This document shows, one piece after another, positions 31,978 to 57,676 of a DNA stretch of 64,000 nucleotides. The first letter of the stretch is position 1, and each line of letters opens with the position of its first letter. The stretch is from Luteolibacter luteus (lineage in GTDB: Bacteria; Verrucomicrobiota; Verrucomicrobiia; Verrucomicrobiales; Akkermansiaceae): assembly GCF_012913485.1 (NCBI RefSeq), contig NZ_CP051774.1:1860001-1924000 (forward strand). The letters are read 5' to 3'. A program made the position numbers and the translations under genes. The notes under the pieces were generated by a model that was not told the origin of the DNA, ran no database searches, and saw only the letters and a list, made by a program, of their open reading frames with translations.

Positions 31978-34900
31978 TCAGGACATCCTGATCCGGATTT
32001 CATGAGTTCCGCCGCTACTTGGTAACGTCGCACGGGCTGCATCTCCATCGACGCCGAGGGGAACCCCGTCCAGCGTGACGGAGTCGATGGTCTTTGCAAA
32101 GCCGCCGGGAGCCTCGACAATCACACGATAGCTGGCCGCCCCGTTGGGTAGGCGGCCTTCGATGGTGAATCCCTCCCAATCGTCAGGAATGCAGGGCTTC
32201 AGCACGATGGTCGATCCGCCGTCGATCGTCAGGCCGAGGATAGACTCAAGTGCAACACGGTACATCCACCCGGAGGATCCGGTATACCAAGTCCATCCTC
32301 CGCGGCCGATGTGGGGTTGCGCACCATAAACATCTGCCGCCACGGCATAGGGCTCCACCTTGTAAACATCAGCCGCTTCAGGCGTGCGCGAATGAGAAAT
32401 CGGCGTGAGCATTTCCCACAGACGCAGTGCCCGATTATTCTCGCCGTGCTCCGCGATCGACTGGACTGCCCAGCAAGCAGCATGGGTGTATTGCCCACCA
32501 TTCTCGCGCACGCCGGCGACGTAGCCCTTAATGTAGCCCGGATCATTGGGCGTATTGACGAAGGGTGGCGTCAGCAGGCGAATGATCCCTTCTCTTTCTG
32601 AAACGAGTTCTCGCTCCATCGCTTCCATGGCCAGGTCCGCACGATCGGGCGGTGCCGCTTTGGAGATGATCGCCCAAGACTGGGCCAAGGTATCGATCTT
32701 GCACTCGTCACTCTCACGGGAGCCAAGGGGAGCGCCGTTATCGTAGTAAGCGCGGCGATACCACTCACCGTCCCAGCCTCCATCGTTCAGGGCTGCGAGC
32801 AGCTTGACCCGATGATCTTCATATCGTGTGGCACGTTCAACATCGCCACGGCTCCGGCACACCGGGATGAACTCTCCCAGAATCCGATAAAGGAAGAAGC
32901 CCACCCACACACTTTCGCCCCGTCCTTCGCGGCCAACGCGGCTCATTCCATCATTCCAATCCCCTGTTCCCATCAAGGGCAGGCCGTGGGCTCCCGTCAC
33001 CAGCGAACGGTCAATGGTCCGGCAACAATGGTCGTAAAACGAGCCATCCTCTCCTGACAATTCAGGTTCGAGGTAGTTCTCATCGTGACCTTCTGCCAAC
33101 AGCGGGGCCTTGAGGTACGGGAGCACCTCATCGAGCAGAGAGCTATCGCCGGTTGCCCCCAGATAATCGCATGTCAATAGCGGCAACCACAAGAGATCAT
33201 CGGAGAAACGAGTCCTCAGGCCACGACCGATAGGTTCCGCGTGCCACCAGTGGAGAACATCCCCTTCCACGAACTGATGACGGGCATGTAGGAGCAACTG
33301 GCGTCTTGCGAAGGAAGGGTCCAAGGCAAGAAGCGAAGCGGAGTCCTGAAGTTGATCCCGATATCCAAAGGCTCCGCTCGATTGATAAAAGGCAGTACGT
33401 GCCCACATCCGGCAGCACAATGTTTGATAGGGAAGCCATCCGTTTACCATCAGGTCCAGAATGGGAGATGGCGTGCTGACCTTTACTCCAGCTGCCAGCG
33501 ACCTCCAAAAATCCCGCATCTCCGCAAGCGCCGCACGGACGGTCTCCGGATCACGATAACGACCGACCAACTCGTCCACGGCCCGATCCGACATTTCCTC
33601 CCCGAGGAGAATGATGCATTCGGCACTGGACCCTGCCTGCAAGGTAAACGCCGACTGTTGGACAAAGCAGGGATCGAGTCCCGCTCCACAAGCCCCCCCC
33701 AGCTCCCCACCACGGCAAAGAGCGGCCGGATTCGCCGGAGAACCATGGCGACCGAGGAACTCAAAGCGGTCACAGGTGAAGTCATTCGATTCGGTAGCGA
33801 CCCCACTTACCGTGAGTGTAGAAAAGGCGATCCCTCCACGGAAGTCGCCCGCTGCAAGATTCACCGCTCGCAGGCTCCCATCGGCACCCGGGCGCGTCAC
33901 GATCAAACTGGGCTGCGCTGGCAGCGTTCCCATCACCAAGCGCTGATACGCTGTGATTGAAAGCCTCTTCGCAACTCCGGATCGATTGGTCAACCGAACG
34001 ACGACAATCTTCACGGGGTCATGCCGCGGCACGAACATCGTCGTCTCCTGAGATATTCCCTGACAGGTCGAGATGAAACGGGTGGCACCATGGCCATGAC
34101 GAATTTCATGGTCGCCGCCAGAAGGGACCGGTCCCGGCAAAGGACTCCAGACTTCGCCGGTCTCCAGATCGCGGAGATAGAAAGCTTCACCGTGGGGGTC
34201 CGATGCCGGCTCGTTCGACCAGGGGGTGAGCCGGTTCGCCTGGCTATTGCGCGTCCATGTGCACCCCGCCCCGTTCTCGCTCACTAGAAAGCCAGCAACC
34301 TCGTTCGCCACGACATTGATCCATGGCATTGGCGGACGTTTGCCACCCTTTGGAAGGCGAATCACATACTCGCTGCCATCGTGACTGAAGCCACCGTAGC
34401 CATTGAAGAAGCGAAGATCTTCCAAGGCCTCCGATCCCGACCCACTCTCTCCCGCCACTTGGATCTCCTTTGGAACACAGGGTACGTGATTGGTGGAGAC
34501 ATCGGGCAAGCTGCCCCGGACGACTAGGGAAGCGATCGCGAAGAGCATCGCCACTCCCTCCTCGCCCAGTTCCTTGGGCTTGAATGTAAAGACCCGGTCA
34601 TCCAGACCATCAGGTACGCCAGCGCCCGAGTCATCCAGCACGACGAAATTGGTATAGAATCCCTTTGTTCCCCAATAGCCACGGGCTTTTAGCGCCTCTT
34701 GCGTCGGTGCTGCAGCCCAACCATCGCAGAGGATCATGGTTGGCCGGTCGCGCGGGATTGGAGGCAACGCCGTCCCCTCAAGCACTCGCGGCGAGGGGAT
34801 CAGACCACGATGTCCATAGTTCATCGCGGCAGCCAGCGACTGAAACTTTGAGGCTGTCTTATCATCGATACCAAGTTCAACCCGGACGTTCTCCTCCGCG

Positions 34901-35748
34901 TCGACGGCATCAAGTAACTCCTGATCCACCGCGGTGATTCCGCGGAATTTCCCAGCAAGCTTGAGTGCCTCGGCTTTGTTTTCCGCAATGCCGGTGACGA
35001 AACCGATCACCGATTCTCCTTCCGTATCCAATTCCACCACGGTCCGGAGACTCAAGCAGGGATCAAGGACATTCCCTACCGAGCCAGAAAGCTCGTCCAC
35101 TTCCAGAGCCTGAGGGTGGACCACGCTTCGTCCCCGCCCCAGAAATCGAAGCCGGTCGCTTTCGCACGAGGTCGCGCCCGCTCCGGCCAGCGAGTGAAAC
35201 AGGCAAGGCCAGGTTTCATCCGCCCCGCGTGAACGGCGCTCGGCAATCAAGGTCGAGGATGCAGGCTCATAGGAGGTCTGCACGAAGAGCTTCGAGAACG
35301 CAGGATGGCCGATATCCGCCCCCTGCCAGGTAAGCACGGCTTCAAGAAAGCTCGTTACCTCGATCCGCCTCGGACGTTTGGTAAGGTTGGTCAATTGTAG
35401 ACGTCGCACTTCAAGGTCGTCCCCGGGAGAAACGGCGACATCGAGCTGCGCACGAATACCGCGTGTCTCGCTAACAATCCTGAAGACCCCGGGAAGGTCC
35501 GACGATTGATAAGCGGTACTCTTGCACTTCACCGGCTGCATCGCCGCAGACCAAAGCGCTCCATTATCGAGATCCCTCAGGTAGATGAACTGGCCTTGGG
35601 AATCCTCCACCGGATCGCCATGCCAGCGGTTTACCACGTGGCCATAACGCCGCGACTGTCCGGTACCAGCTGCGGTGATAAAGGTGAAATAGCGACCGTT
35701 CGATAGCAGCCGGGCGTGCGGCGAGGGAAGCATGGGATTGGGTTTCAT
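31978..35748 (-). CDS. GH94 family phosphorylase-like protein (NdvB C-terminal type, no GT84 domain)
   Basis: 1256 residues. Two successive GH94 N-terminal supersandwich modules (about 1-320 and 480-760) share RLLSNGRYFTFITAAGTGQSRR / MPWINVVANEVAGFLVSENG and the RLTPWSNEPASDPHGEAFY linker seen in NdvB. The (alpha/alpha)6 barrel (about 780-1180) has FYQSSGAFGYRDQLQD, then GTGDWNDGM (930-935; the Asp of DWND is the expected general acid) and GGWTWYTGSSGWMYR. Characterised relatives phosphorolyse beta-1,2-glucans to glucose 1-phosphate; cyclic-glucan synthases add a GT84 domain, absent here. So an oligoglucan phosphorylase is the best guess. Overlaps the upstream gene by ATGA. Confidence 0.85.
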   Translation of the reverse strand: MKPNPMLPSPHARLLSNGRYFTFITAAGTGQSRRYGHVVNRWHGDPVEDSQGQFIYLRDLDNGALWSAAMQPVKCKSTAYQSSDLPGVFRIVSETRGIRAQLDVAVSPGDDLEVRRLQLTNLTKRPRRIEVTSFLEAVLTWQGADIGHPAFSKLFVQTSYEPASSTLIAERRSRGADETWPCLFHSLAGAGATSCESDRLRFLGRGRSVVHPQALEVDELSGSVGNVLDPCLSLRTVVELDTEGESVIGFVTGIAENKAEALKLAGKFRGITAVDQELLDAVDAEENVRVELGIDDKTASKFQSLAAAMNYGHRGLIPSPRVLEGTALPPIPRDRPTMILCDGWAAAPTQEALKARGYWGTKGFYTNFVVLDDSGAGVPDGLDDRVFTFKPKELGEEGVAMLFAIASLVVRGSLPDVSTNHVPCVPKEIQVAGESGSGSEALEDLRFFNGYGGFSHDGSEYVIRLPKGGKRPPMPWINVVANEVAGFLVSENGAGCTWTRNSQANRLTPWSNEPASDPHGEAFYLRDLETGEVWSPLPGPVPSGGDHEIRHGHGATRFISTCQGISQETTMFVPRHDPVKIVVVRLTNRSGVAKRLSITAYQRLVMGTLPAQPSLIVTRPGADGSLRAVNLAAGDFRGGIAFSTLTVSGVATESNDFTCDRFEFLGRHGSPANPAALCRGGELGGACGAGLDPCFVQQSAFTLQAGSSAECIILLGEEMSDRAVDELVGRYRDPETVRAALAEMRDFWRSLAAGVKVSTPSPILDLMVNGWLPYQTLCCRMWARTAFYQSSGAFGYRDQLQDSASLLALDPSFARRQLLLHARHQFVEGDVLHWWHAEPIGRGLRTRFSDDLLWLPLLTCDYLGATGDSSLLDEVLPYLKAPLLAEGHDENYLEPELSGEDGSFYDHCCRTIDRSLVTGAHGLPLMGTGDWNDGMSRVGREGRGESVWVGFFLYRILGEFIPVCRSRGDVERATRYEDHRVKLLAALNDGGWDGEWYRRAYYDNGAPLGSRESDECKIDTLAQSWAIISKAAPPDRADLAMEAMERELVSEREGIIRLLTPPFVNTPNDPGYIKGYVAGVRENGGQYTHAACWAVQSIAEHGENNRALRLWEMLTPISHSRTPEAADVYKVEPYAVAADVYGAQPHIGRGGWTWYTGSSGWMYRVALESILGLTIDGGSTIVLKPCIPDDWEGFTIEGRLPNGAASYRVIVEAPGGFAKTIDSVTLDGVPLGVDGDAARATLPSSGGTHEIRIRMS

Positions 35749-38700
35749 GGCAAAGGATGAAAGGAGAGAAGCACCTTGGCTGGAAATTCGCGGACGATCA
35801 CTTCGTCGGCACTAAAGGCCGCAGCAGGCTTTCCGTTTACCGTGACCGATCGGATCGGAGCCGGACAAGGCGGACGCAGGACAAAGCCCCCTTCGGGCAT
35901 ATCGAGATTCCCTCCGATCTCAACCGTCATGACATCTCCCGGCTTCAAGGTCAGATCGAGCGGCCCATACCAGGTCCTTAGCCCTTTGACCGAGATCCCA
36001 TTTCTACGTCCCAGCCAGTCGTGGGAAACTCCGGACGCGAGGACCAAGGCATCATCGGATTCGCGCTCCCATGCGAACATGCTGGCAAAGGCGAGCATAT
36101 ACTCAGCCGCGATCCATGTATGGGGCACGTCTCCGAGGTGTCCCGGACTACGGGGATCCCTCCAAGAGATTTCCGGCCACTGGTTCCAGCGTAAGGGACG
36201 CCTGTCATCGAGAAATCGCTCCATCAACTCGACGGCCTCTTCCCTTCTTCCGAGCCTCACCAAGGCACCGACGATCCGGATCTCGTAGGCAGTGTAATTG
36301 TTCCACTCCATCTCTCCGCTGTGCTTCCGCCGGAAGTCGCGAACGAAAAGATCGAACATCGCATCAAGCTGCTCCGATGGCATGTCATCCGCCGCATGGA
36401 GCAAGGAGATCGCATTGGAAGTCGCGGTGGGATCGAAGTCCGCCCATTCGACCGAGCCAGGAATGTAATTGAGCTTCTTCTCCGCGATAACGATGCGGAT
36501 GGACGCGCGGATCGATTCTCTAAGGGCACGGGCAAGATCCTCAAAAGCTTCAGAGTCCTTCCTCTTCCCCAAGCGAGTCGCAATCGCTGCGGCATCGAGC
36601 AATCCGCGAAGAGCCCAGAAATCATCCCAATAGGAGTGCACCGGGTGCGCCAGATAGCCTTCGTGGCTCGCAGATTCCGGCAGCAGGCCGTAGCGATCCT
36701 TCTTGTCGGGAGCCAGATACTCCGCAGTCATCCGGCGGGCACGAAGCCGCTCGATGAACCGCGCGGCCTTTCGCACATGCGGCCACATTTCCTTCAGGAA
36801 AGAGAGATCGCCACTGAACCGATAGCACTCGCGCACTCCATAGATGAGCTGCCCGTGGCTATCGTGTTCAACAAGCCAGTCCGGACCGTTGCGATCAACG
36901 CAACAGGGAACGAAGCCCGAGGGCCGCTGAAAGGGCGCATACCAGCGGAGGAACTCCGGCAAGGCCAAACTTTCTCCCGCGCGCAGCAGGGCCGCACCCA
37001 TGATCACGCCATCACGGATCCAAGAACGGGTGTAGCGACGCGGTCCGGGCTGCAACGCGGGACCATCCCGATTGATGAGGATTTGTCCAGCAGCAGTCTT
37101 GAAGGTATCTGCCGCATCCCGCGCCATCGCTCGGGGGAAGCGGAAACTCACGGCATCCAACCTTTTGCCCAAATCGCGGAGGGCCTCAGCGAATTGAGCT
37201 CCCCCATCAAGGCGAGCCACGCTAGCGACCTGTCGCGCGCTATTCTTTTCGCCAAAAGGCACCGCGACAAAAATGTCCCGATGCCCGCCCGCAGGGATCT
37301 TCAGTGAGAAGCCCATGGCCGCGGAGGCAAAGCCGAAATCATCTTCGACCTCCGTCTGATCGGGCAAGGTGCCGGCTGCCAGGTGTTCAGTCACCGATCC
37401 TTGCTCGAAGGAAGCCATGCCGATCGACGAGGGCCTAGCCAGCGGCACCACGGCCTTCCCGCCATTCACCCATAGGACATCATTTTTCCATGCGAGGCGG
37501 CTGATCTTGCTGACACCCCCAAGATGCTTCCATTCCTGCCAAGGCGGATTGACTTGGAACGGGCGGGCCGCGACGAACAAAGTCACCCGGCAAGCCTCCT
37601 CGGTGAGATTGCTCACACGGTAGCGGACGAATAGAACGGACGCCGCCCCCTTCCCGGTAGCAAAGGCGGTGGTTGACAGTCTCATCTGCTCCATGGTCCA
37701 GGACGATGTGGGAATCGGCAGGCCGTCCTTCTCCATTTCCACCGAACGCCGGGCATCCGCCCAAGTGATCAGGTCGCCATTGCGCTTCAGAAAGGGCTCA
37801 AGCGAGAAGGAACCTTTATCCGGCTCCACCATGCCCTCTTCATTGATCAAGGCACAGGTGATGCCATCAGGTCCCCCGGCACAGGTCCAATAGCTTTGCT
37901 CGCGATAAAGGTAGCGCGGGTAATAACCCCGCGTACTTGCCGAGGCGACCGCATGAAAGGTTTCGATCAGTGTCTTCGAAAAAGCGAAGGACTGGACCGA
38001 CAAGCGTTTCACGCCCGGGCAGGGGACACCAAAGACGATTCTCAGGAAGCGGGACCGAGTAAGCGAAAGGTGTATAAAGCTCCGCGAACCACGGGCATCG
38101 CGTGCGGAATGAAGATCTCTCCACTGCTTGCCGTCGTCCGAAGACTGAACCGTAAAGGCGCGCCTAGCGGGCCGGGGCAGCCAGTCGATGATCAAGCCAC
38201 CATACTCGCGAGGCTCATGGAAATCGATGCTCAGCCAAGGCTCCGCATCATCGGTGAGGCTCTTCCAGCCCGCTCCGGGATGAGCGGCAAGCAAAGCCAA
38301 GGGATTCGATCCACGAGCCGAGCTGGAGGTTGTGATCCTCGGCTTCCTCCTCAGTGTCCGGTCTTGGAAACGGAATTGATCGATCCAAATCGTCCCCTTC
38401 CCGCCCGGGCCCGCGCTTAACACGAACTCGATCGCTCCCAGCTCGCGGATCGCCCCGCCACCCGCCGGACCCCACGCAAAGCTGATGCCGCTGCCGTGGA
38501 GATGGAGCTCGCGTGGCTGCTCGCGGAAATCAAACTCCTCTTCCTGCCAGCGCCACACGTTCTTTCCCGACGGATCTGCCAGCTTGAATTCCAGCTTGTT
38601 CTTCGGTGCGCTCCCGCGAACCCGGAAGGCAAATGCGTAGTCGGCAGGCATGCGCCGGGAGAACTCCTTGCGGGCCACCACAAAACCGCCTCCGCCGTGG

Positions 38701-38840
38701 AAATCGAAATCCAACCTCAAGGCCCCTCCCTCCACTGAAATGTGCATCTCGGCCTCTCCGGAGGCAAAAGCACGCCAGCCCCCGGCAGAGGAAAAGTCAT
38801 CGAGCACGGATTCTCTCATGGGTTTGTTAGAAGATGTCAC
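35745..38840 (-). CDS. Large carbohydrate-active protein: CBM-like + F5/8C + (alpha/alpha)6 barrel
   Basis: 1031 residues. The N-terminal beta-sandwich (about 10-170) resembles CIA30/CBM-type modules (RLDFDFHGGGGFVVARKEFS). Residues 180-300 form a discoidin (F5/8 type C) domain (SIDFHEPREYGGLIIDW, FTVQSSDDGKQWRDLHSARD). The rest is a glycosidase-like barrel with YTRSWIRDGVIMGAALLRAG, YWDDFWALRGLLDAAAIA and WNNYTAYEIRIVGAL. No signal peptide, so cytoplasmic. No assigned GH family from memory. The GTG start at 38840 has AGAGGGA upstream and overlaps the previous stop (GTGA); ATG at 38819 is an alternative. Coupled to the GH94 gene, so it may process the same beta-glucan. Confidence 0.75.
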   Translation of the reverse strand: MTSSNKPMRESVLDDFSSAGGWRAFASGEAEMHISVEGGALRLDFDFHGGGGFVVARKEFSRRMPADYAFAFRVRGSAPKNKLEFKLADPSGKNVWRWQEEEFDFREQPRELHLHGSGISFAWGPAGGGAIRELGAIEFVLSAGPGGKGTIWIDQFRFQDRTLRRKPRITTSSSARGSNPLALLAAHPGAGWKSLTDDAEPWLSIDFHEPREYGGLIIDWLPRPARRAFTVQSSDDGKQWRDLHSARDARGSRSFIHLSLTRSRFLRIVFGVPCPGVKRLSVQSFAFSKTLIETFHAVASASTRGYYPRYLYREQSYWTCAGGPDGITCALINEEGMVEPDKGSFSLEPFLKRNGDLITWADARRSVEMEKDGLPIPTSSWTMEQMRLSTTAFATGKGAASVLFVRYRVSNLTEEACRVTLFVAARPFQVNPPWQEWKHLGGVSKISRLAWKNDVLWVNGGKAVVPLARPSSIGMASFEQGSVTEHLAAGTLPDQTEVEDDFGFASAAMGFSLKIPAGGHRDIFVAVPFGEKNSARQVASVARLDGGAQFAEALRDLGKRLDAVSFRFPRAMARDAADTFKTAAGQILINRDGPALQPGPRRYTRSWIRDGVIMGAALLRAGESLALPEFLRWYAPFQRPSGFVPCCVDRNGPDWLVEHDSHGQLIYGVRECYRFSGDLSFLKEMWPHVRKAARFIERLRARRMTAEYLAPDKKDRYGLLPESASHEGYLAHPVHSYWDDFWALRGLLDAAAIATRLGKRKDSEAFEDLARALRESIRASIRIVIAEKKLNYIPGSVEWADFDPTATSNAISLLHAADDMPSEQLDAMFDLFVRDFRRKHSGEMEWNNYTAYEIRIVGALVRLGRREEAVELMERFLDDRRPLRWNQWPEISWRDPRSPGHLGDVPHTWIAAEYMLAFASMFAWERESDDALVLASGVSHDWLGRRNGISVKGLRTWYGPLDLTLKPGDVMTVEIGGNLDMPEGGFVLRPPCPAPIRSVTVNGKPAAAFSADEVIVREFPAKVLLSFHPLP

Positions 38841-41134
38841 GCTTCCCTCTGAATTCCATCAATGAATCCGCGCGCGCCATTTCCCAAGTTGGCGGCGTTT
38901 GCCTCGTCCGTGTCGATGTGCATCGCGAGAGCGAATTTCGGGTCGACGCGAACCCTCACATCGCCGAAGACCATCTCCCGGTCCCCATCCACGCGAACTC
39001 GTACCGACGCCTTGTCGTTCACCCCGTAACGCAGGGCATCCGCGGGGGTCATATGGATGTGACGGAGGGCACAGATCACGCCTTTGTCGAGCTCCACGCT
39101 ACCCGCCGGGCCCTCCAAGATGCAGCCGGGTGTACCTTCGATGTCCCCGGACTCGCGGATCGGAGGCTGGATGCCGATCTTGAATTGCTCCGTCATGGCA
39201 ATTTCCACTTGAGTAGTCTTCCGCGCCGGGCCTAGCACCCGGACCCGTTCGATCCGGCCTTTGGGCCCGACGATGGCGAGTTGCTCCTTGCAGGCATACT
39301 GTCCGGGTTGAGAGAGATCGGCATGTTTCGTCAGCTCGTGGCCAGGGCCGAAGAGGGCTTCCACGTGCTCCTTAGACAAATGGATATGGTGAGCGGAAAC
39401 CTCGATCGGAATCGGCTCTGTCCGGCATGCCTCGCTGGCGCGGACGAGATAATCGCGGCTCAGCCCCTTCAAGCTCTCGCGCGCGATCATGCGTTCCTCG
39501 TCGGTCGGCAAGACAAGGATCTGAACTGCAGAGGAATCCGTGGAGATCCGGTCAACCTCCTTGCCAGTGGCAGCTCGGTTGCGCGTCTCATCCAGATGGA
39601 TTCCCATGCACTGCAATCCTTGCACCGCTGCACCACGCACTCCGGCACTTCCTTGCCCGATACCGGCAGTGAAAACCAAAACATCAATCCCGCCCAACGC
39701 AGCGACAAGCGCTCCGATTCCTTTGCGGACCCGATAGCAAAAGACTTTGAAAGCAATCAGGGCACGTGCATCTCCGAGATCGGCCGCGGCCTCGATCTCA
39801 CGCATGTCGCCCGAGATTCCAGAAAGGCCGAGCAAGCCGCTTTCCTTGTTGAGAAGCCTGTCCAGCTGGGCCGCATCCAATCCACCGCGTTGCAGATGGA
39901 GAAGCACTCCGGAATCGATATCCCCACAACGGGTCCCCATCACCAGACCTTCCGCAGGGGTGAAACCCATCGTGGTATCTACCGAGCGCCCATGGTCAAT
40001 GGCGCACAAGGAAGCACCGCTACCCAAATGGCAGCTCACGATCTTCAGCTCCCTCGGATGTTTCTTAAGAAAGTGGGCGGCGGCGAGTACCACATGCCCG
40101 TGCGAGGATCCATGAAAGCCATAACGCCGGATAGACTCGGTCTCGTAGTAGCGTGATGGGAGGCCGTAGAGAAAAGCGTGGGCTGGAAGGGTCGCGTGAA
40201 AGGCAGTATCGAAGACGGCCACTTGAGGCACCGCGGGAAACAAACGGAGGGCCTCGCGGATGCCGGCAACGTTGACCGGATTGTGCAAAGGTGCCAGCGT
40301 TGCAAGCTTATCGAGCTCTTCCAACACATGGCCATCAATGATCGTTGGACCCGTGAAACGCTCTCCGCCATGGACCACCCGGTGACCGACCACCGTGATC
40401 GAAGAGAGTTCGGAAATGACTCCGAAGCCCCGATCCAGCAACACTTCCATCATCGCGGCAAAGGCCTCTGGATGACCTCCTAGGGGGAGCTTCCGGTTCA
40501 CTTCGCAGCGGGGTCCATGCTGGACCAGACGCGTGCCACTCGCTCCGATCCTCTCGATCTGCCCATGCGCATCATTCTGTGGGCGCGCGGTATCGAAGAT
40601 ACTCCACTTCAGGGAGGAAGAGCCGCAATTGAGAACGAGCACGCATTCAGGGCGCTCACCTTTTAGCTCGAGCAAAGCACTCATATCCTCCTTTCGGGCA
40701 ATGGCGGCCGCCTTGGCAGGATCCCCCATCACCAGTCGGAACCTCTCCCCGATCGTCCTGGAAATTTGCTGGACCGCTCCAGCATCCGCCATGATGTGGG
40801 AACGGAAGAGCGTCAGCGGGATGAGCATCACCTTGCAGGCTGAAACCGCCGTCAGGTCCGCGAGAACATTCTCGCCGCTCATGAGAGCCATCTCACCGAA
40901 GGTGTCCCCGGGATTAAAACGAGCGAGCTCGCGGGGCCCTGAATCATCGTCAATCGTCGCAAGCACTTCCCCTTCCAGAACGACCCCAAGAAAATGCACT
41001 TCATCTCCGGCATGAGCGATCCTCTCACCGGGGACAAAAGCTTCGATACCCGATCCATCGGCAAGTTCCTTGAGCCGTACCGTGTCAAAGCCCGCGAAGA
41101 GCTTCACCTTTGTACTGAGAAAATCTTCGGTCAT
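38837..41134 (-). CDS. CNB-acetate kinase-PduL phosphotransacylase fusion
   Basis: 765 residues in three parts. (1) CNB-like domain, about 8-135, with FNPGDTFGEMALMSGEN (Glu81); the usual Arg after it is missing (NVLADLTA). (2) Full acetate kinase, about 163-555: VLNCGSSSLKWSIFD, HRVVHGGERF, FDTAFHATLP, RRYGFHGSSHGHV, TRCGDID, FTAGIGQGSAG and TDEERMIA, covering the expected catalytic Arg, Asp, His and Glu residues. (3) PduL-type phosphotransacylase, about 575-765: VSAHHIHLSKEH, LRHIHMTPADALRYG and AMHIDTDEA, the zinc-binding His set. Together it could convert acetyl-CoA to acetate plus ATP without a free acetyl phosphate pool. Start MTEDFLSTKV at 41134 overlaps the phosphorylase stop (ATGA). 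Confidence 0.93.
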   Translation of the reverse strand: MTEDFLSTKVKLFAGFDTVRLKELADGSGIEAFVPGERIAHAGDEVHFLGVVLEGEVLATIDDDSGPRELARFNPGDTFGEMALMSGENVLADLTAVSACKVMLIPLTLFRSHIMADAGAVQQISRTIGERFRLVMGDPAKAAAIARKEDMSALLELKGERPECVLVLNCGSSSLKWSIFDTARPQNDAHGQIERIGASGTRLVQHGPRCEVNRKLPLGGHPEAFAAMMEVLLDRGFGVISELSSITVVGHRVVHGGERFTGPTIIDGHVLEELDKLATLAPLHNPVNVAGIREALRLFPAVPQVAVFDTAFHATLPAHAFLYGLPSRYYETESIRRYGFHGSSHGHVVLAAAHFLKKHPRELKIVSCHLGSGASLCAIDHGRSVDTTMGFTPAEGLVMGTRCGDIDSGVLLHLQRGGLDAAQLDRLLNKESGLLGLSGISGDMREIEAAADLGDARALIAFKVFCYRVRKGIGALVAALGGIDVLVFTAGIGQGSAGVRGAAVQGLQCMGIHLDETRNRAATGKEVDRISTDSSAVQILVLPTDEERMIARESLKGLSRDYLVRASEACRTEPIPIEVSAHHIHLSKEHVEALFGPGHELTKHADLSQPGQYACKEQLAIVGPKGRIERVRVLGPARKTTQVEIAMTEQFKIGIQPPIRESGDIEGTPGCILEGPAGSVELDKGVICALRHIHMTPADALRYGVNDKASVRVRVDGDREMVFGDVRVRVDPKFALAMHIDTDEANAANLGNGARGFIDGIQREA

Positions 41135-43599
41135 GTTTGGGAAGGTTTTGCGTTCACGTTCCAGATGCGTTCGCAATATTCACGGATGGAACGGTCCGAG
41201 GAGAAGCGACCCATCCGCGCCACGTTGAGAATCGAGCTAGAGGTCCAAGCATCGGAGTCACCCCACAGCTCACCAACACGCTGCTGGGCATCCAGATAGG
41301 CACGGAAGTCCGCGAGCAAGAGGTAGGGGTCGCCGTGGAGGAGATTGTCCACCACTGGACGGAAGAGATCCGGATCGCCGCCAAGGGCACCGCTCGCAAT
41401 GAAATCAATCGTTTCCCTTAGCAACGAATCAGACTCGTAGTAAGTTTGCGGCTGGTATCCTCCTGCCTTGAGAGCCGATACCTCCGAGGCGGTCAAACCG
41501 AAGAGGAAGAAATTCTCCGCGCCCACGGCATCGCGGATCTCCACGTTGGCTCCATCCAGGGTGCCGATCGTGAGAGCTCCATTGAGCGACATCTTCATGT
41601 TGCCCGTTCCGGAGGCCTCCATCCCTGCAAGGGAAATCTGCTCGGAGAGATCGGCTGCCGGATAGATGTGCTGGGCATTCTTCACGTTGAAATCCGGGAA
41701 GAAGACCACCTTGAGCCGCCCCGCCACGTCGGGATCTTGATTCACGAGTTCTCCGGTCGCCGTAACGAGGCGGATGATGCGTTTCGCGAGGAAATAGCCT
41801 GGTGCCGCTTTTCCTCCGAAGATGAAGGTTCGGGGCACGACCCCAGCATCAGGATCCCGCTTGATCGAGAGATAAAGCGAGAGAACGTGAAGCAAATTGA
41901 GATGTTGGCGCTTGTATTCATGGATGCGCTTCACCTGCACATCGAAGAGCGAGTCGGGGGTAACCACGATACCCGTCCGCTCCTGGATCAAGGCCGCGAG
42001 CCTCCGCTTGTTAGCGAGCCTTACCTCCCTCCATTCCCGCCGGAATCCGGGATCGGCGGCAAGGGGCTCAAGCCGCCCCAGACAAGAAAGATCGCCAGGC
42101 CACCCGGCACCGAGTTCACGCTCGAGCAGTCCCGCCAGCCCCGGATTGGCCAAGGCAACGAAGCGGCGTGGCGTCACGCCATTGGTAACATTGTCAAATT
42201 TCTCCGGCCATAGCGCGGCAAAGTCAGCGAGCACGGTCTTCTTGAGGAGCTCCGAATGCAGCGCGGCCACCCCATTGATCTTGTGGCTTCCCACGCAGGC
42301 GAGATTGGCCATGCGCACATATCGTGCTCCGTGTTCATCGATGAGCGACAGCCTCGCCAAGCGAGCATCGTCATCAGGAAAGGCCGTACGGACCTCATCG
42401 AGGAAGCGGTGATTGATCCCGTAGATGATCTCCAGATGACGAGGGAGCACGCTGCCGAAGAGCTCGACCGGCCACTTCTCCAAGGCCTCCGGCAATAGAG
42501 TATGATTGGTGTAAGAAAAGGTCTTCTGGGTGATCGCCCAAGCATCGTCCCACTCAAGAGCATGCTCATCCACCAGAAGACGCATCAGCTCGGCCACCCC
42601 GATCGCGGGATGCGTGTCATTGAGCTGAACTGCCCAACTTTCGTCAAACGCTGCCACCTTCCCACCAGACATCGCCACTAGGCGCAGCATGTCTTGCAGG
42701 GCACAACTGGTGAAAAAGAACTGCTGCTTGAGCCGGAGTTCTTTTCCTCGATGAAGCTCGTCATTCGGATAGAGCACCTTGCTAAGGTTCTCGGAATCGA
42801 CCTTCTGTTCGACAGCACGGTCGTAGTCACCGTGATTGAAGGCCTCAAAGTCGAAAGACTCGACAGCTTCGGACTTCCAAAGCCGCATCAACGAGCAGGT
42901 GCCGGAGCCATAGCCGGTGATCGGCGTGTCATAGGCCTCGCCCTTGATCACAATGGAAGGAACCCACCGCACCCGGGTTCGCCCCTGATCATCCGTCCAA
43001 GTCTCCGTATGCCCGCCGAACTTCACCTGCTTGGCAATCCCAAGACGATGGATCTCCCATGGATTCCCGCCGCTCAACCATTTATCGGTCCCTTCGACCT
43101 GCCATCCATCACGAATCACCTGGTCAAAGATCCCGAACTCATAGCGGATTCCGTAGCCGATCGACTGCACCTCCACGGTGGCCAGGGAATCCAGATAGCA
43201 TGAGGCAAGACGCCCGAGTCCTCCATTGCCAAGGCCGGGCTCTTCTTCTTCGGCGAGCACCCTGTCGAGGTCGATTCCAATCCCGCCAAGTGCCTCCCGC
43301 GTCGCCTCGGCGATCCCTAGATTGAGCAGGTGATTTGCCAAGTGCGGACCGGGCAAGAATTCGGCGGATAGATAGGCGACCCGGCGCATCATCTTCACGA
43401 CACCCTGCTCAAAGCTCTGAACTGCGCGCGCCACGACGTGGTCCCGCACGGTCAACGCCAGAGCAAGGTAGTGATCGTGCGCACTGGCATAGTTCGGCAG
43501 GCGGCCCAGCGCGCAGACGAGATTATCCAGGAAGGCTTGTCGAAGATTCTCCGCGCTGGTGCCGGTCCGGATCGTGTTGGAGGGAGAAATCGCGTTCAT
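41131..43599 (-). CDS. glgP: Glycogen/starch phosphorylase
   Basis: 822 residues, near family length. Signs: VAYLSAEFLPGPHLANHLLNLG and GLGNGGLGRLASCYLDSLAT, SWAVQLNDTHPAIGVAEL, TNGVTPRRF, and the PLP-binding region EASGTGNMKMSLNGALTIGTLDGANVEI. It releases glucose 1-phosphate from glycogen. Start MNAISPSN (ATG 43599, GAAGG just before); a TTG start nine bases earlier is possible. Short N-terminal regulatory residues relative to muscle enzymes, so likely unregulated by phosphorylation. It is 15 nt after the MBL-fold fragment and followed by the CNB-AckA-PduL gene with ATGA overlap. Confidence 0.96.
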   Translation of the reverse strand: MNAISPSNTIRTGTSAENLRQAFLDNLVCALGRLPNYASAHDHYLALALTVRDHVVARAVQSFEQGVVKMMRRVAYLSAEFLPGPHLANHLLNLGIAEATREALGGIGIDLDRVLAEEEEPGLGNGGLGRLASCYLDSLATVEVQSIGYGIRYEFGIFDQVIRDGWQVEGTDKWLSGGNPWEIHRLGIAKQVKFGGHTETWTDDQGRTRVRWVPSIVIKGEAYDTPITGYGSGTCSLMRLWKSEAVESFDFEAFNHGDYDRAVEQKVDSENLSKVLYPNDELHRGKELRLKQQFFFTSCALQDMLRLVAMSGGKVAAFDESWAVQLNDTHPAIGVAELMRLLVDEHALEWDDAWAITQKTFSYTNHTLLPEALEKWPVELFGSVLPRHLEIIYGINHRFLDEVRTAFPDDDARLARLSLIDEHGARYVRMANLACVGSHKINGVAALHSELLKKTVLADFAALWPEKFDNVTNGVTPRRFVALANPGLAGLLERELGAGWPGDLSCLGRLEPLAADPGFRREWREVRLANKRRLAALIQERTGIVVTPDSLFDVQVKRIHEYKRQHLNLLHVLSLYLSIKRDPDAGVVPRTFIFGGKAAPGYFLAKRIIRLVTATGELVNQDPDVAGRLKVVFFPDFNVKNAQHIYPAADLSEQISLAGMEASGTGNMKMSLNGALTIGTLDGANVEIRDAVGAENFFLFGLTASEVSALKAGGYQPQTYYESDSLLRETIDFIASGALGGDPDLFRPVVDNLLHGDPYLLLADFRAYLDAQQRVGELWGDSDAWTSSSILNVARMGRFSSDRSIREYCERIWNVNAKPSQT

Positions 43600-43614
43600 G
43601 GCCTTCAAATGGTG

Positions 43615-43812
43615 TTAAAGTTCGACAGCTCCACCCGCCGGCGGAACCTCGGCTGAAATGGCGTAGCTCCCAGGAATTTGCCGCCGGGAATGTCTCTTGC
43701 GGCGCCCCTGAAACATCCCGAATTCGATCATGATCCGGACCTGCCGGGTCTCGGCGATGTAACAAAAGCCGGTTGCTCCGCCACCTGAAGCGCCAAGGCA
43801 CCTGATCTTCAT
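43615..43812 (-). pseudogene. Truncated metallo-beta-lactamase-fold (RNA-specificity type) protein
   Basis: The 65-residue ORF starts MKIRCLGASGGGATGFCYI, then ETRQVRIMIEFGMFQGRR. This is the exact start expected for MBL-fold RNA-metabolising exonucleases (consensus MKIxFLGAAxxVTGSCYLxE..., ..LIDCGLFQG). Everything after the first beta strands, including the HxHxDH metal motif, is absent, and the tail (RRKRHSRRQIPGSYAI) is unrelated. Its ATG overlaps the stop of the LOG gene (ATGA), so coupling survived while the gene body was lost. It may be a pseudogene or a decayed small ORF; glgP follows. Confidence 0.6.
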
Positions 43813-44561
43813 GACGGAATGGATCTTTCGTCCGGCCTGCCTTGGGACCGCAGCCATTCTTCGCGGCGGGCGCGCAGCAGTTCGATGGTTTCTTCCACGG
43901 ACCCCGCGCACAGCGGAATGTCAAGGTCCTCGGGACTTGCGAGCGCTTGCCCCTCTTGAAGCATCCACTCGCGGCTCCAGTTCACCAATTCACCCCACAT
44001 CTTCCCGACGAGAATCAGGGGGGTGTTGTAGAGGCGGCGTACTTGGAGCAATTGCCAAGCGAGCGACATCTCCAAGAGTGTCCCGATCCCGCCAGGCACC
44101 ACTACAAAGGCATCCGACGCGATCATGAAATGATGCAGCCGGGAGAAGAAGGTACCATGCCCGTAGGCCTTGCCGACGTAAGGGTTCACCGCCTGCTCGA
44201 ATGGCAGATCGATGCGGATTCCCACGGACCGGTGCAATGCGTCCGGATCTACCGAGAGCGCTCCTTCATTGGCTGCCTGCATGAGGCCCGGACCGCCGCC
44301 GCTAATGATATCGCAACCCATTTCCGTCAGCCCAGCCGCGAGCTGCTTCACGCTCTCATAGGCAGACGTGCCCGGCTGAAGGCGGGCCGACCCGAAAATG
44401 GTGACGCGGTAATTGGAACGGAACGTCCGGCGCAAGCGCGTCAGCTCGTTCACGGAATCCCACATTCCGATGATCGCTCGCTCGAGCACCGCTACGGTGG
44501 CGTCCTCATCGCCAAGGCGAATGATATCGGACTGGCCGAAGTTGCTACCTGGGTTGGTCAT
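43809..44561 (-). CDS. LOG-family Rossmann protein (TIGR00730-like)
   Basis: 250 residues. Core signatures VTIFGSARLQPGTSAYESVKQL, CDIISGGGPGLMQAANEGA, then GTFFSRLHHFMIASDAFVVVPGGIGTLLE. The PGGxGTxxE motif binds the nucleotide phosphate; relatives are LOG cytokinin-activating phosphoribohydrolases. In bacteria the role is often nucleotide-monophosphate hydrolysis to a base and ribose 5-phosphate. It lies 19 nt after GlgX and overlaps the MBL fragment start by ATGA. Its link to glycogen use is unclear. Confidence 0.88.
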   Translation of the reverse strand: MTNPGSNFGQSDIIRLGDEDATVAVLERAIIGMWDSVNELTRLRRTFRSNYRVTIFGSARLQPGTSAYESVKQLAAGLTEMGCDIISGGGPGLMQAANEGALSVDPDALHRSVGIRIDLPFEQAVNPYVGKAYGHGTFFSRLHHFMIASDAFVVVPGGIGTLLEMSLAWQLLQVRRLYNTPLILVGKMWGELVNWSREWMLQEGQALASPEDLDIPLCAGSVEETIELLRARREEWLRSQGRPDERSIPS

Positions 44562-44580: not shown

Positions 44581-46704
44581 TCAGGAGAATTTGGCCCGCA
44601 GTACGGCTAGCGAGCGGCTCTGCAGCGGATAGATGGACATCGCAGGGAAGCTCTCATGAGGAGCTTCCGGATTGGAGGTATCGAACTCGCGGGCCCAATG
44701 GAGGTTCCGGTGACGCGCTCCTAGCCGGAAGGAAACGGGCTCATCATGTGCATTGAAAATGATGACAAACGTGTCGCCGGTAATCCGTTCTCCCTGCTCC
44801 CCCGTTTCCTCGATCTGATCTCCTGGCAAGGCCATACCGAAGCAACGGGCGTGGCTCGCATTCCAGTCCGCATCTGTCATCTCCTCACCATCCGGTCGGA
44901 TCCAGTAAAGATCCTTGATCGAAGCGCCATGGATAGGGCGTCCTTGAAAAAATCGCCGCCGCTGGAAGACCGGTTCCGAGCGACGCAGGCGAAGCACATC
45001 CCGGGTGAAAGCGAGCAATGCACGCTGGGCAGGACAGAGACTCCAATCCAGCCACGCCAGCGGAGAATCGTGGCAATAGGGGTTATTGTTGCCGAGTTGG
45101 GTGTTTCCGAATTCATCACCGGAATTCAGCATCGGCACTCCTTGTGAGAGCAGCAGTGTCGCGAGGAGATTCCGCTGCTGCCGCTCGCGTAAGGAGTTGA
45201 TGGCTCGATCCGTCGTCGGCCCTTCGATTCCGCAATTCCAACTATGATTCTCATCACAGCCGTCGCGATTCTCCTCGCCATTGGCCTCGTTGTGCTTCGC
45301 GTTGTAACTCACCAGATCACGAAGCGTGAATCCGTCGTGAGCCGTGATGAAATTGAGGCTCGCACTTGGTCGCCGTCCATTGTGCGAATAGAGATCACTG
45401 CTTCCGGCAAGGCGGGTGGCCAACTCCCCCACCGAGCCGCCCTGCCCTTTCCAGAAGCGCCTCACGCAATCGCGATACTTGCCATTCCACTCGCTCCAAA
45501 GCACCGGGAAATTCCCGACCTGATAGCCATTCGGCCCCAGATCCCACGGCTCGGCGATAAGCTTGACCCGGGAAAGCACGGGATCCTGATGGATGATATC
45601 GAAAAAGGCACCCAGCCGGTCCACCTCCCACAGTTCACGGGCGAGAGCACTGGCCAGATCGAAACGAAAGCCATCCACATGCATCTCCTGCACCCAGTGC
45701 CGCAGCGAGTCCATGATGAGCTGCAGGGAGTGAGGATGAGCCACGTTCAATGAATTTCCACAGCCGGTGAAGTCAACGTAGTGCGTTCGGTCCTCGGCCA
45801 GCCTGTAATAGGCTGCATTATCGATGCCGCGGAAGGAAAGCATCGGGCCGCAATGATTGCCTTCACCAGTGTGATTGTAGACCACATCAAGGATCACTTC
45901 CATGCCCGCGGAGTGAAGCACGCGGACCATCTCCTGAAACTCGGCCACGGCCCCTTCCGGACCACTCGCGGAAAACCGGGGATCCGGCGCAAAGTAGCCC
46001 AAGGTATTATACCCCCAGTAGTTCGTCCTTCCGGATTCGGCCAGATGGGGCTCATCCACATGATAGTGAACAGGCAGCAGTTCCACCGCCGTGACCCCAA
46101 GATCCTTGAGATGACCAACGGCTGCGGGAGAAGCGAGTGCCGCGTAGGTGCCGCGCAGCCTTTCCGGCACTCCGGGATGTTGACGGGTGAAGCCCTTCAC
46201 ATGCAGTTCATACACCACCGTCTGATGCCACGGTGTGAGGGGCGGACGATCACCGTGCCACGCGAAGGAAAAATCGGCGACACGGGCTAGCGGAGCAAAG
46301 GGAGCGCTATCGCTTTCATCGTCCATGATCGCCGGATGCCAGCGAACGTCTCGCGCAATCTCCTTTGCATATGGATCGAGCAGTACCTTGCAGGGCCGGA
46401 AGAGATGGCCTTTTGCCGGAGCATGGGGGCCATAGACTCGGTAGCCGTAGATCTGACCGGCCCGGACATCCGGAAGATATCCATGCCAGACTTGGGCCGT
46501 TCGCTCTGGTAGCGCGATGCGCCGAGACTCGGCCTCCGCATCGACAGAATCGAACAAGCAAAGCTCCACCCGCGTGGCGTGATCGGAAAAGAGCGCGAAA
46601 TTTACGCCGCGGCCATCGAAGGTCGCCCCCAACGGGACCGGCTTCCCGGGCCACACCGGGAAATCCGCCACCGGAACATCCACCTCTGGCAGGGGCCGGT
46701 TCAT
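44581..46704 (-). CDS. glgX: Glycogen debranching enzyme GlgX
   Basis: 707 residues. N-terminal CBM48 (PVPLGATFDGRGVNFALFSDHATRVELCLF), then GH13 barrel regions LHVKGFTRQHPGVPE, DVVYNHTGEGN, the nucleophile region HVDGFRFDLASALA, KLIAEPWDLGPNGY and FITAHDGFTLRDLVSYN. GlgX hydrolyses alpha-1,6 branches in phosphorylase-limit dextrins, the natural partner of GlgP. Start overlaps the stop of the dehydrogenase gene by ATGA; the next gene is 19 nt away. Confidence 0.95.
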   Translation of the reverse strand: MNRPLPEVDVPVADFPVWPGKPVPLGATFDGRGVNFALFSDHATRVELCLFDSVDAEAESRRIALPERTAQVWHGYLPDVRAGQIYGYRVYGPHAPAKGHLFRPCKVLLDPYAKEIARDVRWHPAIMDDESDSAPFAPLARVADFSFAWHGDRPPLTPWHQTVVYELHVKGFTRQHPGVPERLRGTYAALASPAAVGHLKDLGVTAVELLPVHYHVDEPHLAESGRTNYWGYNTLGYFAPDPRFSASGPEGAVAEFQEMVRVLHSAGMEVILDVVYNHTGEGNHCGPMLSFRGIDNAAYYRLAEDRTHYVDFTGCGNSLNVAHPHSLQLIMDSLRHWVQEMHVDGFRFDLASALARELWEVDRLGAFFDIIHQDPVLSRVKLIAEPWDLGPNGYQVGNFPVLWSEWNGKYRDCVRRFWKGQGGSVGELATRLAGSSDLYSHNGRRPSASLNFITAHDGFTLRDLVSYNAKHNEANGEENRDGCDENHSWNCGIEGPTTDRAINSLRERQQRNLLATLLLSQGVPMLNSGDEFGNTQLGNNNPYCHDSPLAWLDWSLCPAQRALLAFTRDVLRLRRSEPVFQRRRFFQGRPIHGASIKDLYWIRPDGEEMTDADWNASHARCFGMALPGDQIEETGEQGERITGDTFVIIFNAHDEPVSFRLGARHRNLHWAREFDTSNPEAPHESFPAMSIYPLQSRSLAVLRAKFS

Positions 46705-47723
46705 GGACTTTGCCGGGCACCCTCCACCAGCACCGTATCTGGCAGGAAAGGAAGCCCCTTGGAAGAAGCGTTCAGATTCTCAACGGTCACTCGCGCGATC
46801 TCCGCCAAGGCTTCCTTGGTTAGGAATGCCTGGTGCGCGGTAATCAGCACGTTTGGGAAGGTGAGTAGGCGGGCGAGGTCATCGTCATGCAGGATCGTGC
46901 CGGACAAATCCTCGAAAAAGACTCCTTCTTCCTCCTCATAGACATCCAGGGCCACTCCCCCGAGACGTCCGCCTTTGAGGGCTCCGATCAAGGCGCGGGT
47001 ATCGATCAGGGCACCGCGGCTGACATTAACCAAAATCACTCCGGGTTTCATCAGAGCTAGGGTTTCCTCACGAATCATATGATGCGTTTCGGGTGTCAGC
47101 GGTGTGTGCAGGGAAATGACCTCCGATTCGGTGGCAAGGGTCCGGGGATCAGTATACTCGATGTCATGCACGGCGGCCCATTCCGGAGACGGAAAGGGAT
47201 CATAGGCCAGGACGCGCATGCCAAAGCCCCGGAGAATCTGCGCCGCGATCCGACCGATCTTTCCCGTACCAACAATCCCTGCCGTCTTTCCATGGAGATC
47301 GAAGCCTACCAGGCCATTGAGCGAGAAATTCAGATCGTGGACGCGGTTGTTCGCGCGAGGAATCTTTCGATTGAGGGCAAGCAAGAGAGCCACAGCATGC
47401 TCCGCAACGGCGTATGGGGAATAGGCAGGCACACGGGTTACGGACATCCCCAGCTCCTTCGCGGCAATCAGATCCACTCCATTGAACCCGGCACAGCGTA
47501 GCGCGATGTGTCCTACCCCGAGTGCTTTGAGTGCTTCCAAGCAGGCCCTGTCACCATGATCATTAACAAAGATGCAAACCGCGGAAGCTCCCCCCGCCAT
47601 GACCGCGGTATCCACCGAGAGACGGGACTCGAGGAATTGCCATTCCATCCCGCTGCCCTTTGAGGCAAGCTCGAGTTGCTCGCGGTCGTAGGGCTTGGTG
47701 TCGAAAACAACGGTGCGGTTCAT
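46701..47723 (-). CDS. ldhA: D-2-hydroxyacid dehydrogenase, probably D-lactate dehydrogenase
   Basis: 340 residues. Substrate-binding region RCAGFNGVDLIAAKELGM, Rossmann fold GKTAGIVGTGKIGRIAAQIL, catalytic Arg in NVSRGALIDT, Glu in DVYEEEEGVFFED and His in LITAHQAFLTKEAL. The HQAFLT motif and RCAG.N are typical of fermentative LdhA. It would reduce pyruvate to D-lactate with NADH. The gene is 33 nt downstream of phosphofructokinase and is coupled to glgX, arguing for a fermentation role. Confidence 0.9.
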   Translation of the reverse strand: MNRTVVFDTKPYDREQLELASKGSGMEWQFLESRLSVDTAVMAGGASAVCIFVNDHGDRACLEALKALGVGHIALRCAGFNGVDLIAAKELGMSVTRVPAYSPYAVAEHAVALLLALNRKIPRANNRVHDLNFSLNGLVGFDLHGKTAGIVGTGKIGRIAAQILRGFGMRVLAYDPFPSPEWAAVHDIEYTDPRTLATESEVISLHTPLTPETHHMIREETLALMKPGVILVNVSRGALIDTRALIGALKGGRLGGVALDVYEEEEGVFFEDLSGTILHDDDLARLLTFPNVLITAHQAFLTKEALAEIARVTVENLNASSKGLPFLPDTVLVEGARQSP

Positions 47724-52714: not shown

Positions 52715-52795
52715 GGCTTTACAGCGGTTTGGGAAACTGGGCCCGAAATCCGATCCCAGCCTTCCCTTCATGAACCGCCGGGAGCCAGATGACTA

Positions 52796-54684: not shown

Positions 54685-54704
54685 TGGATCTTGGGATTGA
54701 AGGT

Positions 54705-57544: not shown

Positions 57545-57676
57545 ATGGAAATCCGATGCACCGGACAAAGAGATTCCAGTAATACCAAAGTAGCATGCCC
57601 GGCGGGAAACCCATGCTCGACTTGCCGATCCGGCGGGCGGGTAATGACAAGACCGCTTTCCATTCTTCATCCTATC

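Follow-up and report, generated by a model that had tools for sequence, protein, structure and literature searches.

Architecture and recurrence of the fusion

The stretch of DNA analysed here (the window: 64,000 nucleotides of Luteolibacter luteus contig NZ_CP051774.1, with coordinates counted from its first base) carries at 38837..41134 (-) a gene that joins a cyclic nucleotide-binding (CNB) domain, an acetate kinase (AckA) and a PduL-type phosphotransacylase in one polypeptide. Its frame runs uninterrupted from an ATG at 41134 to a stop at 38837 and encodes 765 residues; as a first-pass annotation of the sequence had proposed, it contains all three domains, whose Pfam matches lie above the curated cut-offs: cNMP_binding (PF00027) at residues 32-114 (E 2e-14; 53.8 bits versus 27.5), Acetate_kinase (PF00871) at 165-552 (E 9e-131; 436.6 versus 22) and PTAC/PduL (PF06130) at 576-750 (E 3e-79; 265.2 versus 25). 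The kinase and PduL parts are also recognized by the NCBIfam models TIGR00016 (432.3 bits; cut-off 293.4) and NF011652, respectively. On the DNA, the CNB region (residues 1-140) occupies 40715..41134 (-), the kinase domain 39479..40642 (-) and the PduL domain 38885..39409 (-). An AlphaFold2 model of the whole protein, based on 20 aligned rows, has a mean predicted local distance difference test (pLDDT) score of 77.6 and a predicted template-modelling score of 0.63, and the CNB region modelled alone reaches a pLDDT of 86.4. In Foldseek, the whole model matches the acetate kinase of Methanosarcina thermophila (1g99) with a template-modelling score, by target length, of 0.88; its other matches are PduL (5cuo; 0.70) and CNB proteins.

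A scan of contigs identified 239 stretches encoding relatives, of which the best 80, corresponding to 79 loci, were kept. Among these, a frame of at least 740 residues is found at 76 of the 79 loci; the shorter ones are L005 (644 residues, with an in-frame stop), L022 (709) and L040 (656, at a contig end). The L005 gene, 7980-9920 (+) in Verrucomicrobium sp. BvORR034, has its stop within the PduL part, and the frame is whole at L004, from a related strain. Profiles made from the 80 rows themselves, and hence not independent of them, detect all three domains in 80/80. The same domain order recurs in bacteria of several phyla, given by record titles as Verrucomicrobiota, Planctomycetota, Bacteroidota, Fibrobacterota, Spirochaetota, Myxococcota, Hydrogenedentes and Pseudomonadota; most rows are metagenome bins, and individual taxon labels may be wrong. 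When aligned, the 80 rows split into class A (35, including the window) and class B (45 loci, L035-L081 except L037 and L040, all Pseudomonadota by title).

Each of the three parts is under purifying selection, with a dN/dS of at most 0.16 in seven pairs. Between the window and L007 the values are 0.16 for CNB, 0.076 for AckA and 0.045 for PduL, with dS (1.4-1.7) close to saturation; the six other pairs give 0 to 0.144 per domain.

The CNB domain and its candidate ligand

The phosphate-binding-cassette stretch of the window protein (residues 79-96; 40847..40900 (-)), FGEMALMSGENVLADLTA, keeps the Glu, has no Arg at the Arg position and carries Asp at that of Thr; the retention of FGE and the loss of the phosphate-binding Arg, both noted in the first-pass annotation, are confirmed by the CNB alignment. 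Across the rows, the ribose-contact Glu (E81) is present in 35/35 of class A and 0/45 of class B, the cyclic-phosphate site (position 90) is Arg in 0/80, and the Thr position is Asp in 28/35 and 44/45, respectively. In 7/35 class A and 39/45 class B rows the preceding position (89) is Arg, and for these a shifted phosphate-binding Arg is conceivable; the window is not among them. Binding of a cyclic phosphate by the window CNB is hard to reconcile with such a cassette, and cyclic AMP (cAMP), disfavoured by the missing Arg, appears an unlikely ligand, which sustains the earlier suggestion that another molecule may be bound. The window's genome does encode class III cyclase domains (PF00211); in total they were found in 16 of the 17 genomes searched.

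The Foldseek matches listed for the CNB model are CNB folds. The three best are trypanosomatid protein kinase A (PKA) regulatory subunits (5.8e-12 to 2.2e-11), of which the first is a mutant carrying cAMP at one of its sites; cAMP-bound GlxR follows (2.5e-11), so that the margin over cAMP binders is small. According to the relevant part of PMC10959531, the trypanosomatid subunits bind purine nucleosides. The equivalent of Glu311, which sets nucleoside binding there, is Ala83 in the window and Glu in 2/35 class A rows; with this key Glu missing, a full nucleoside-type cassette was rejected for the window, and a nucleoside is a lead to the ligand, no more.

The domain might instead sense nothing and act as a dimerisation or docking module, for example one that joins the acetate enzyme and the aspartase encoded in the same gene run (see below) in a single assembly, both activities being unchanged. 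A degenerate cassette without its phosphate Arg would be expected of such a module, and CNB is the least conserved of the three domains (14/140 positions at least 95% conserved, versus 134/393 in AckA and 85/175 in PduL); the ribose-contact Glu of all class A rows and the purifying selection acting on this part nevertheless speak against it, and we consider the docking role unlikely, though worth keeping in view.

Active sites of the kinase and PduL domains

Numbered after the M. thermophila enzyme, the window AckA retains the whole catalytic and acetate-binding set, that is N7, R91, H123, D148, H180, R241 and E384 as well as the acetate determinants V93, L122 and P232; H123, D148, H180, R241 and E384 are the residues to which we take catalytic roles to belong. 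Residue roles follow in part the pertinent section of PMC4390882. In the nucleotide loops, S10-S12, K14, G239, R285 and G331 are unchanged, whereas N211 is replaced by Ser, E334 by Gln and N335 by Gly. Thus, the claim that all recognisable acetate kinase motifs are present stands for catalysis and acetate binding but not for these three positions. The residue table places the first change at Ser372 in the PHOSPHATE2 loop (40019..40021 (-)); the other two fall in the ADENOSINE loop (residues 487-500; 39635..39676 (-)), which aligns as GIGQGS with the canonical GIGENS. Class A has Asn at 211 in 32/35 rows, Gln at 334 in 34/35 and Gly at 335 in 33/35. Glu occupies 334 in four AckA-PduL rows that have no CNB domain (L105, L106, L107 and L119), in the five (of nine) stand-alone kinase rows caught by the search pattern and in 45/45 rows of class B; since the latter do bear a CNB domain, E334Q is a lineage marker that is not necessarily CNB-linked.

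In the part of PMC4390882 concerned, N211S reduces the specific activity of the M. thermophila kinase from 883 to 4.4, and the acetate kinase of Cryptococcus, which naturally has Ser at 211, prefers ATP. Pyrophosphate use by an acetate kinase is linked, in the corresponding part of PMC5517563, to an occluded pocket at Gly331, whose equivalent (Gly491) is present in the window and replaced in 45/45 class B rows; a pyrophosphate-dependent kinase is accordingly not favoured for the window protein, where occlusion of the pocket is not indicated. Given the natural Ser211 of Cryptococcus and the unoccluded Gly331 pocket, the window kinase is expected from its residues to be an ADP/ATP enzyme despite the loss caused by N211S, perhaps a slow one or one with an altered nucleotide preference.

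The PduL domain contains all zinc ligands and the phosphate Arg (H48, H50, E109, H157, H159, H204 and R103) and most of the residues contacting coenzyme A (CoA). At the CoA contact K70 the window has Ala, and Lys is nowhere the common residue. Residues named in the PduL passage of PMC4784909 are kept in classes A and B where covered, save R97 (one row) and K70; Gln77, which the same passage links to users of acetyl- or propionyl-CoA, is present in the fusion. A microcompartment setting, in which PduL is often found, is not borne out: the window's genome (G000) yields 0 matches to the shell protein family PF00936, in a search with positive controls in 2/14, and a microcompartment enzyme was rejected.

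Class B keeps R91, H123, D148, H180 and R241 of AckA in 45/45 rows and has lost S10, S12, K14, N211, G239, G331 and E384 in 45/45 and R285 in 42/45. This pattern leaves the acyl-phosphate side whole and the nucleotide side broken, and class B is possibly a non-kinase, or an enzyme with another donor. Class B is nested in class A on the AckA tree, where its stem measures 0.81, compared with 0.14 on the PduL tree, which fits a change of use confined to the kinase part; both are quick trees without bootstrap that omit L005, L022, L040, L079 and L108 and use 8/45 class B rows (a separate tree omits L005, L022, L040 and L079). At L076 (7797-10298 and the next frame), two class B copies lie in tandem in Rhodocyclus purpureus.

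Other acetate kinases and phosphotransacetylases were sought in the same genomes. PF00871, searched in 19 genomes (12 class A and 7 class B), has the fusion as its sole match in 6/12 of class A; in G008 the only other match is a 171-residue fragment with a stop, and additional copies occur in the remaining five. Each of the 7 class B genomes contains a match besides the fusion; it is without CNB or PduL in the three checked and was judged by frame length in the rest. The phosphotransacetylase Pta (PF01515) gives no match in 5, weak or partial matches in 2 and clear ones in 5 of the 12 class A genomes, and is present in 4/4 class B genomes searched. Neither a second acetate kinase nor Pta occurs in four class A genomes (G001, G007, G009 and G012), suggesting that both catalytic domains work, with the reservation that bins may be incomplete. 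Searches of the window's own genome found no second AckA and no second PduL.

These data also bear on the idea that the kinase is weak or altered, using another nucleotide or pyrophosphate, which would leave the protein chiefly as a regulated phosphotransacylase or acetyl-phosphate sensor. N211S, so harmful in M. thermophila, occurs in the window together with E334Q and N335G, and sister class B has lost its nucleotide site with PduL intact; the ATP-preferring Cryptococcus enzyme, however, shares the Ser, the Gly at the occluded-pocket position of the pyrophosphate enzyme is kept, kinase residues are conserved in class A and in several genomes the fusion is the only acetate kinase. A weak or altered kinase seems quite unlikely to us.

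Gene setting

The fusion belongs to a same-strand run of thirteen genes from 57670 to 31978, all (-), with a largest gap of 392 bases before the YidE-type gene; a single transcript is only putative. In the direction of reading, the run begins with a DcaP-type outer membrane porin (56030..57670; PF19577), an anaerobic C4-dicarboxylate transporter of the Dcu type (54705..56033; PF03605, with TIGR00770 over cut-off) and a second CNB protein, in which the domain heads an aspartate ammonia-lyase (52831..54708; PF00027, PF00206 and PF10415, with NF008909 over cut-off and TIGR00839 just under it at 668 versus 681 bits). These are followed by an ATP-type phosphoenolpyruvate (PEP) carboxykinase (51131..52771; PF01293), an AspT/YidE-type transporter (49068..50738; PF06826, with NF003007 over cut-off), a 6-phosphofructokinase that is ATP-type by NF005301 (47757..48998), a D-2-hydroxyacid dehydrogenase of D-lactate type (46701..47723; PF02826/PF00389, with the NCBIfam D-lactate models below cut-off), the glycogen debranching enzyme GlgX (44581..46704; TIGR02100 over cut-off), a LOG-family, lysine decarboxylase-like protein (43809..44561; PF03641) and a glycogen phosphorylase (41131..43608; PF00343, TIGR02093). 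The latter overlaps the fusion by four bases, the start of the fusion lying in an ATGA. A further 4-base overlap connects the 3' end of the fusion with a glycosidase-like protein (35745..38840; PF00754 and a weak PF17389 under cut-off), and a GH94 phosphorylase-type protein (31978..35748; PF17167, PF06165) completes the run.

This setting, among genes for glycogen breakdown and for lactate and C4 acids, speaks against operation in reverse, from acetate and ATP to acetyl-CoA for acetate scavenging. The reversibility of both half-reactions and the separate Pta of the window's genome would each suit scavenging; we nonetheless regard it as decidedly improbable.

Parts of the run are found elsewhere. 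The Haloferula genome G003 (L132), which is that of L007, has nine of the 13 genes in the same order; G740 (L130) has the fusion and seven genes of the sugar half; and in G745 (L131), L004 and L005, where the fusion contains the stop described above, genes for Dcu, CNB-aspartase and CNB-AckA-PduL are directly consecutive. The CNB-aspartase is full-length in 3/17 genomes searched, namely the window's and the ones that hold L004 and L007, and is also seen in L131 and L005. In the window it keeps FGE and has His at the cassette Arg position; because its CNB shares only 25% identity with the fusion's CNB across 110 positions, the two domains were probably gained separately. CNB matches in the window's genome number 8 in all. 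They include, judged by eye, a frame resembling a CNB-thioredoxin-reductase-type protein (L091, 169-1866 (-)) and another resembling glutaminase-STAS-CNB (L086, 1-1860 (+)), with more CNB matches near the second.

For six loci from phyla other than Verrucomicrobiota, Pfam searches of ten neighbouring genes returned several central-metabolic functions, none common to all: lactate/malate dehydrogenase, pyruvate kinase, serine dehydratase, a sugar-phosphate enzyme fusion and a LOG protein. Next to the fusion in Candidatus Brocadia pituitae (L019, 3078-6368 (+)) is a 1096-residue frame combining an RpiB-type isomerase, a transaldolase and a phosphoglucose isomerase, and a similar frame is found at L021. 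Class B neighbours, by Pfam, are sulfite reductase, phosphoadenosine phosphosulfate (PAPS) reductase, YcaO, TauE and signalling or cell-wall genes, with no evident link.

Regulatory scans were uninformative for promoters (3 found versus 6.0 in shuffles) and terminators (19 versus 16.3). FNR control received no support, with 2 one-mismatch matches to the FNR consensus in the 64 kb versus 1.7 expected, neither near the fusion. Elsewhere in the window lie a polyphosphate kinase 2 family gene (23428-24360 (+)) and an RND efflux pump gene (25596-28751).

Distribution and origin

Within the family of the window the fusion is rare, being whole in 4/145 sampled genomes. PduL occurs in 35/288 sampled genomes of its phylum and has a fusion-size frame in only 2: that of the window itself and G236, whose frame has an internal stop. 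In the phylum of G007, PduL occurs in 59/392 genomes and lies in frames of 771-808 residues in 10, G007 included; L109 and L110, taken from these ten, have all three domains.

On the trees, three-domain rows all cluster together (support 99 for AckA and 88 for PduL). CNB-less fusions and three-domain forms may share one origin, with a support of 93 on the PduL tree and 69 on the AckA tree, where the set includes three stand-alone kinases. That the fusion stems from faulty assembly, from a frameshift or from fortuitous read-through of neighbouring genes is next to inconceivable. Separate AckA and PduL genes do lie close together in other genomes of the family, but nothing was found in favour of an artefact, and the artificial joining named at first pass as a possible refutation is excluded by the long frame at 76/79 loci, the whole copies in 4/145 family genomes and the clustering of fused parts apart from the few stand-alone rows.

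Proposed function

We propose, with a probability of roughly 0.6, that the fusion is a bifunctional acetate-forming enzyme with N-terminal CNB gating by a ligand other than cAMP, acting in a glucan fermentation run; its recurrence across several phyla makes a functional, regulated enzyme of energy metabolism probable. The C-terminal PduL would convert acetyl-CoA and phosphate to acetyl phosphate, whose phosphoryl group the central kinase would pass to ADP, yielding acetate and ATP; this conversion, also put forward in the first-pass annotation, is the natural reading of two active sites that appear largely intact by their residues. Acetyl phosphate may be channelled between the two. Binding of its ligand to the CNB domain would gate both steps. 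Glycogen and other glucans opened by phosphorolysis would feed the run, and its products would be D-lactate, acetate and, through aspartase, PEP carboxykinase and Dcu, C4-dicarboxylates. The presence of a CNB domain on each of two linked enzymes suggests a shared signal and is the best argument for one; a single signal, or class of signals, would then set both the fusion and the CNB-aspartase steps.

Several observations weigh against this proposal. The window carries the N211S replacement, which costs the M. thermophila kinase about 200-fold in activity (PMC4390882, in the part cited above), and Glu334 and Asn335 are changed too. Loops of the AlphaFold2 model with a pLDDT below 50 (residues 315-326, 392-411, 606-612 and 637-639) in several cases adjoin active sites. 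The CNB domain could be structural, and a second route may exist beside the PduL part, as the window's genome has one separate Pta gene. Finally, gene neighbours differ beyond Verrucomicrobiota, and G718, of the same genus, retains the sugar half with the fusion reduced to a 22-residue relic (L133, about 8332-8397 (-)) that matches the fusion end at 91% identity beside the glycosidase-like gene, indicating that the run can do without the fusion.

If the proposed function is correct, substrate-level ATP formation from acetyl-CoA would be switched on and off at one ligand-gated protein, and the fusion would be a natural case in which to test whether acetyl phosphate is channelled. As acetyl phosphate also acetylates proteins, its confinement to a single polypeptide would be relevant to signalling. 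The same ligand could be sought in a second protein, the CNB-aspartase of the same run. More tentatively, and as something possible rather than probable, the fusion may represent a post-translational fermentation switch used in several phyla, in which CNB domains read a molecule of energy or purine status that is not a cyclic nucleotide; they would act on a one-chain acetate/ATP enzyme and, in some Verrucomicrobiota, also on the neighbouring aspartase, giving one signal for both anoxic branches, and the proteobacterial branch would have become a regulated phosphotransacylase or acetyl-phosphate sensor through loss of the nucleotide site.

Comparison with known systems

The mycobacterial protein acetyltransferase Pat likewise combines a CNB domain with an enzyme of acetate metabolism, but it is a different enzyme and its CNB ligand is cAMP; the Pat NCBIfam model matches the CNB region of the fusion weakly. 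The trypanosomatid PKA regulatory subunits described in the part of PMC10959531 used here resemble the window CNB in having no phosphate Arg and in an alignable V/L-A-D stretch, and differ in the ligand-setting Glu311, which is Ala83 in the window. The window kinase shares its fold and catalytic residues with stand-alone M. thermophila acetate kinase (1g99/1tuu) but is fused at both ends and changed at N211, E334 and N335. Likewise, its PduL has the metal, phosphate and most CoA residues of Rhodopseudomonas palustris PduL (5cuo) but is fused, has Ala for the CoA contact Lys70 and comes from a genome without a shell match.

The statement that no characterised example is known needs qualification, as AckA-PduL multidomain proteins, with channelling proposed, are already in print (Erbilgin et al. 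2016, PMC4784909, in the passage concerned). For the CNB-headed form, no description was found in the literature searched, by titles and abstracts, with most subscription papers outside its scope; nor was one found there for a cyclic nucleotide-binding domain on aspartate ammonia-lyase. What look undescribed are the CNB regulatory head and the CNB-aspartase neighbour, the enzymes being ordinary and the AckA-PduL fusion already noted. Like the window protein, those of Erbilgin et al. join acetate kinase to PduL without an encapsulation peptide; the passage of PMC4784909 on them does not mention a CNB domain, whereas the window form is headed by one. The CNB-less AckA-PduL forms L105, L106, L107 and L119 retain the canonical GIGEN, in contrast to the GIGQG of CNB-headed class A.

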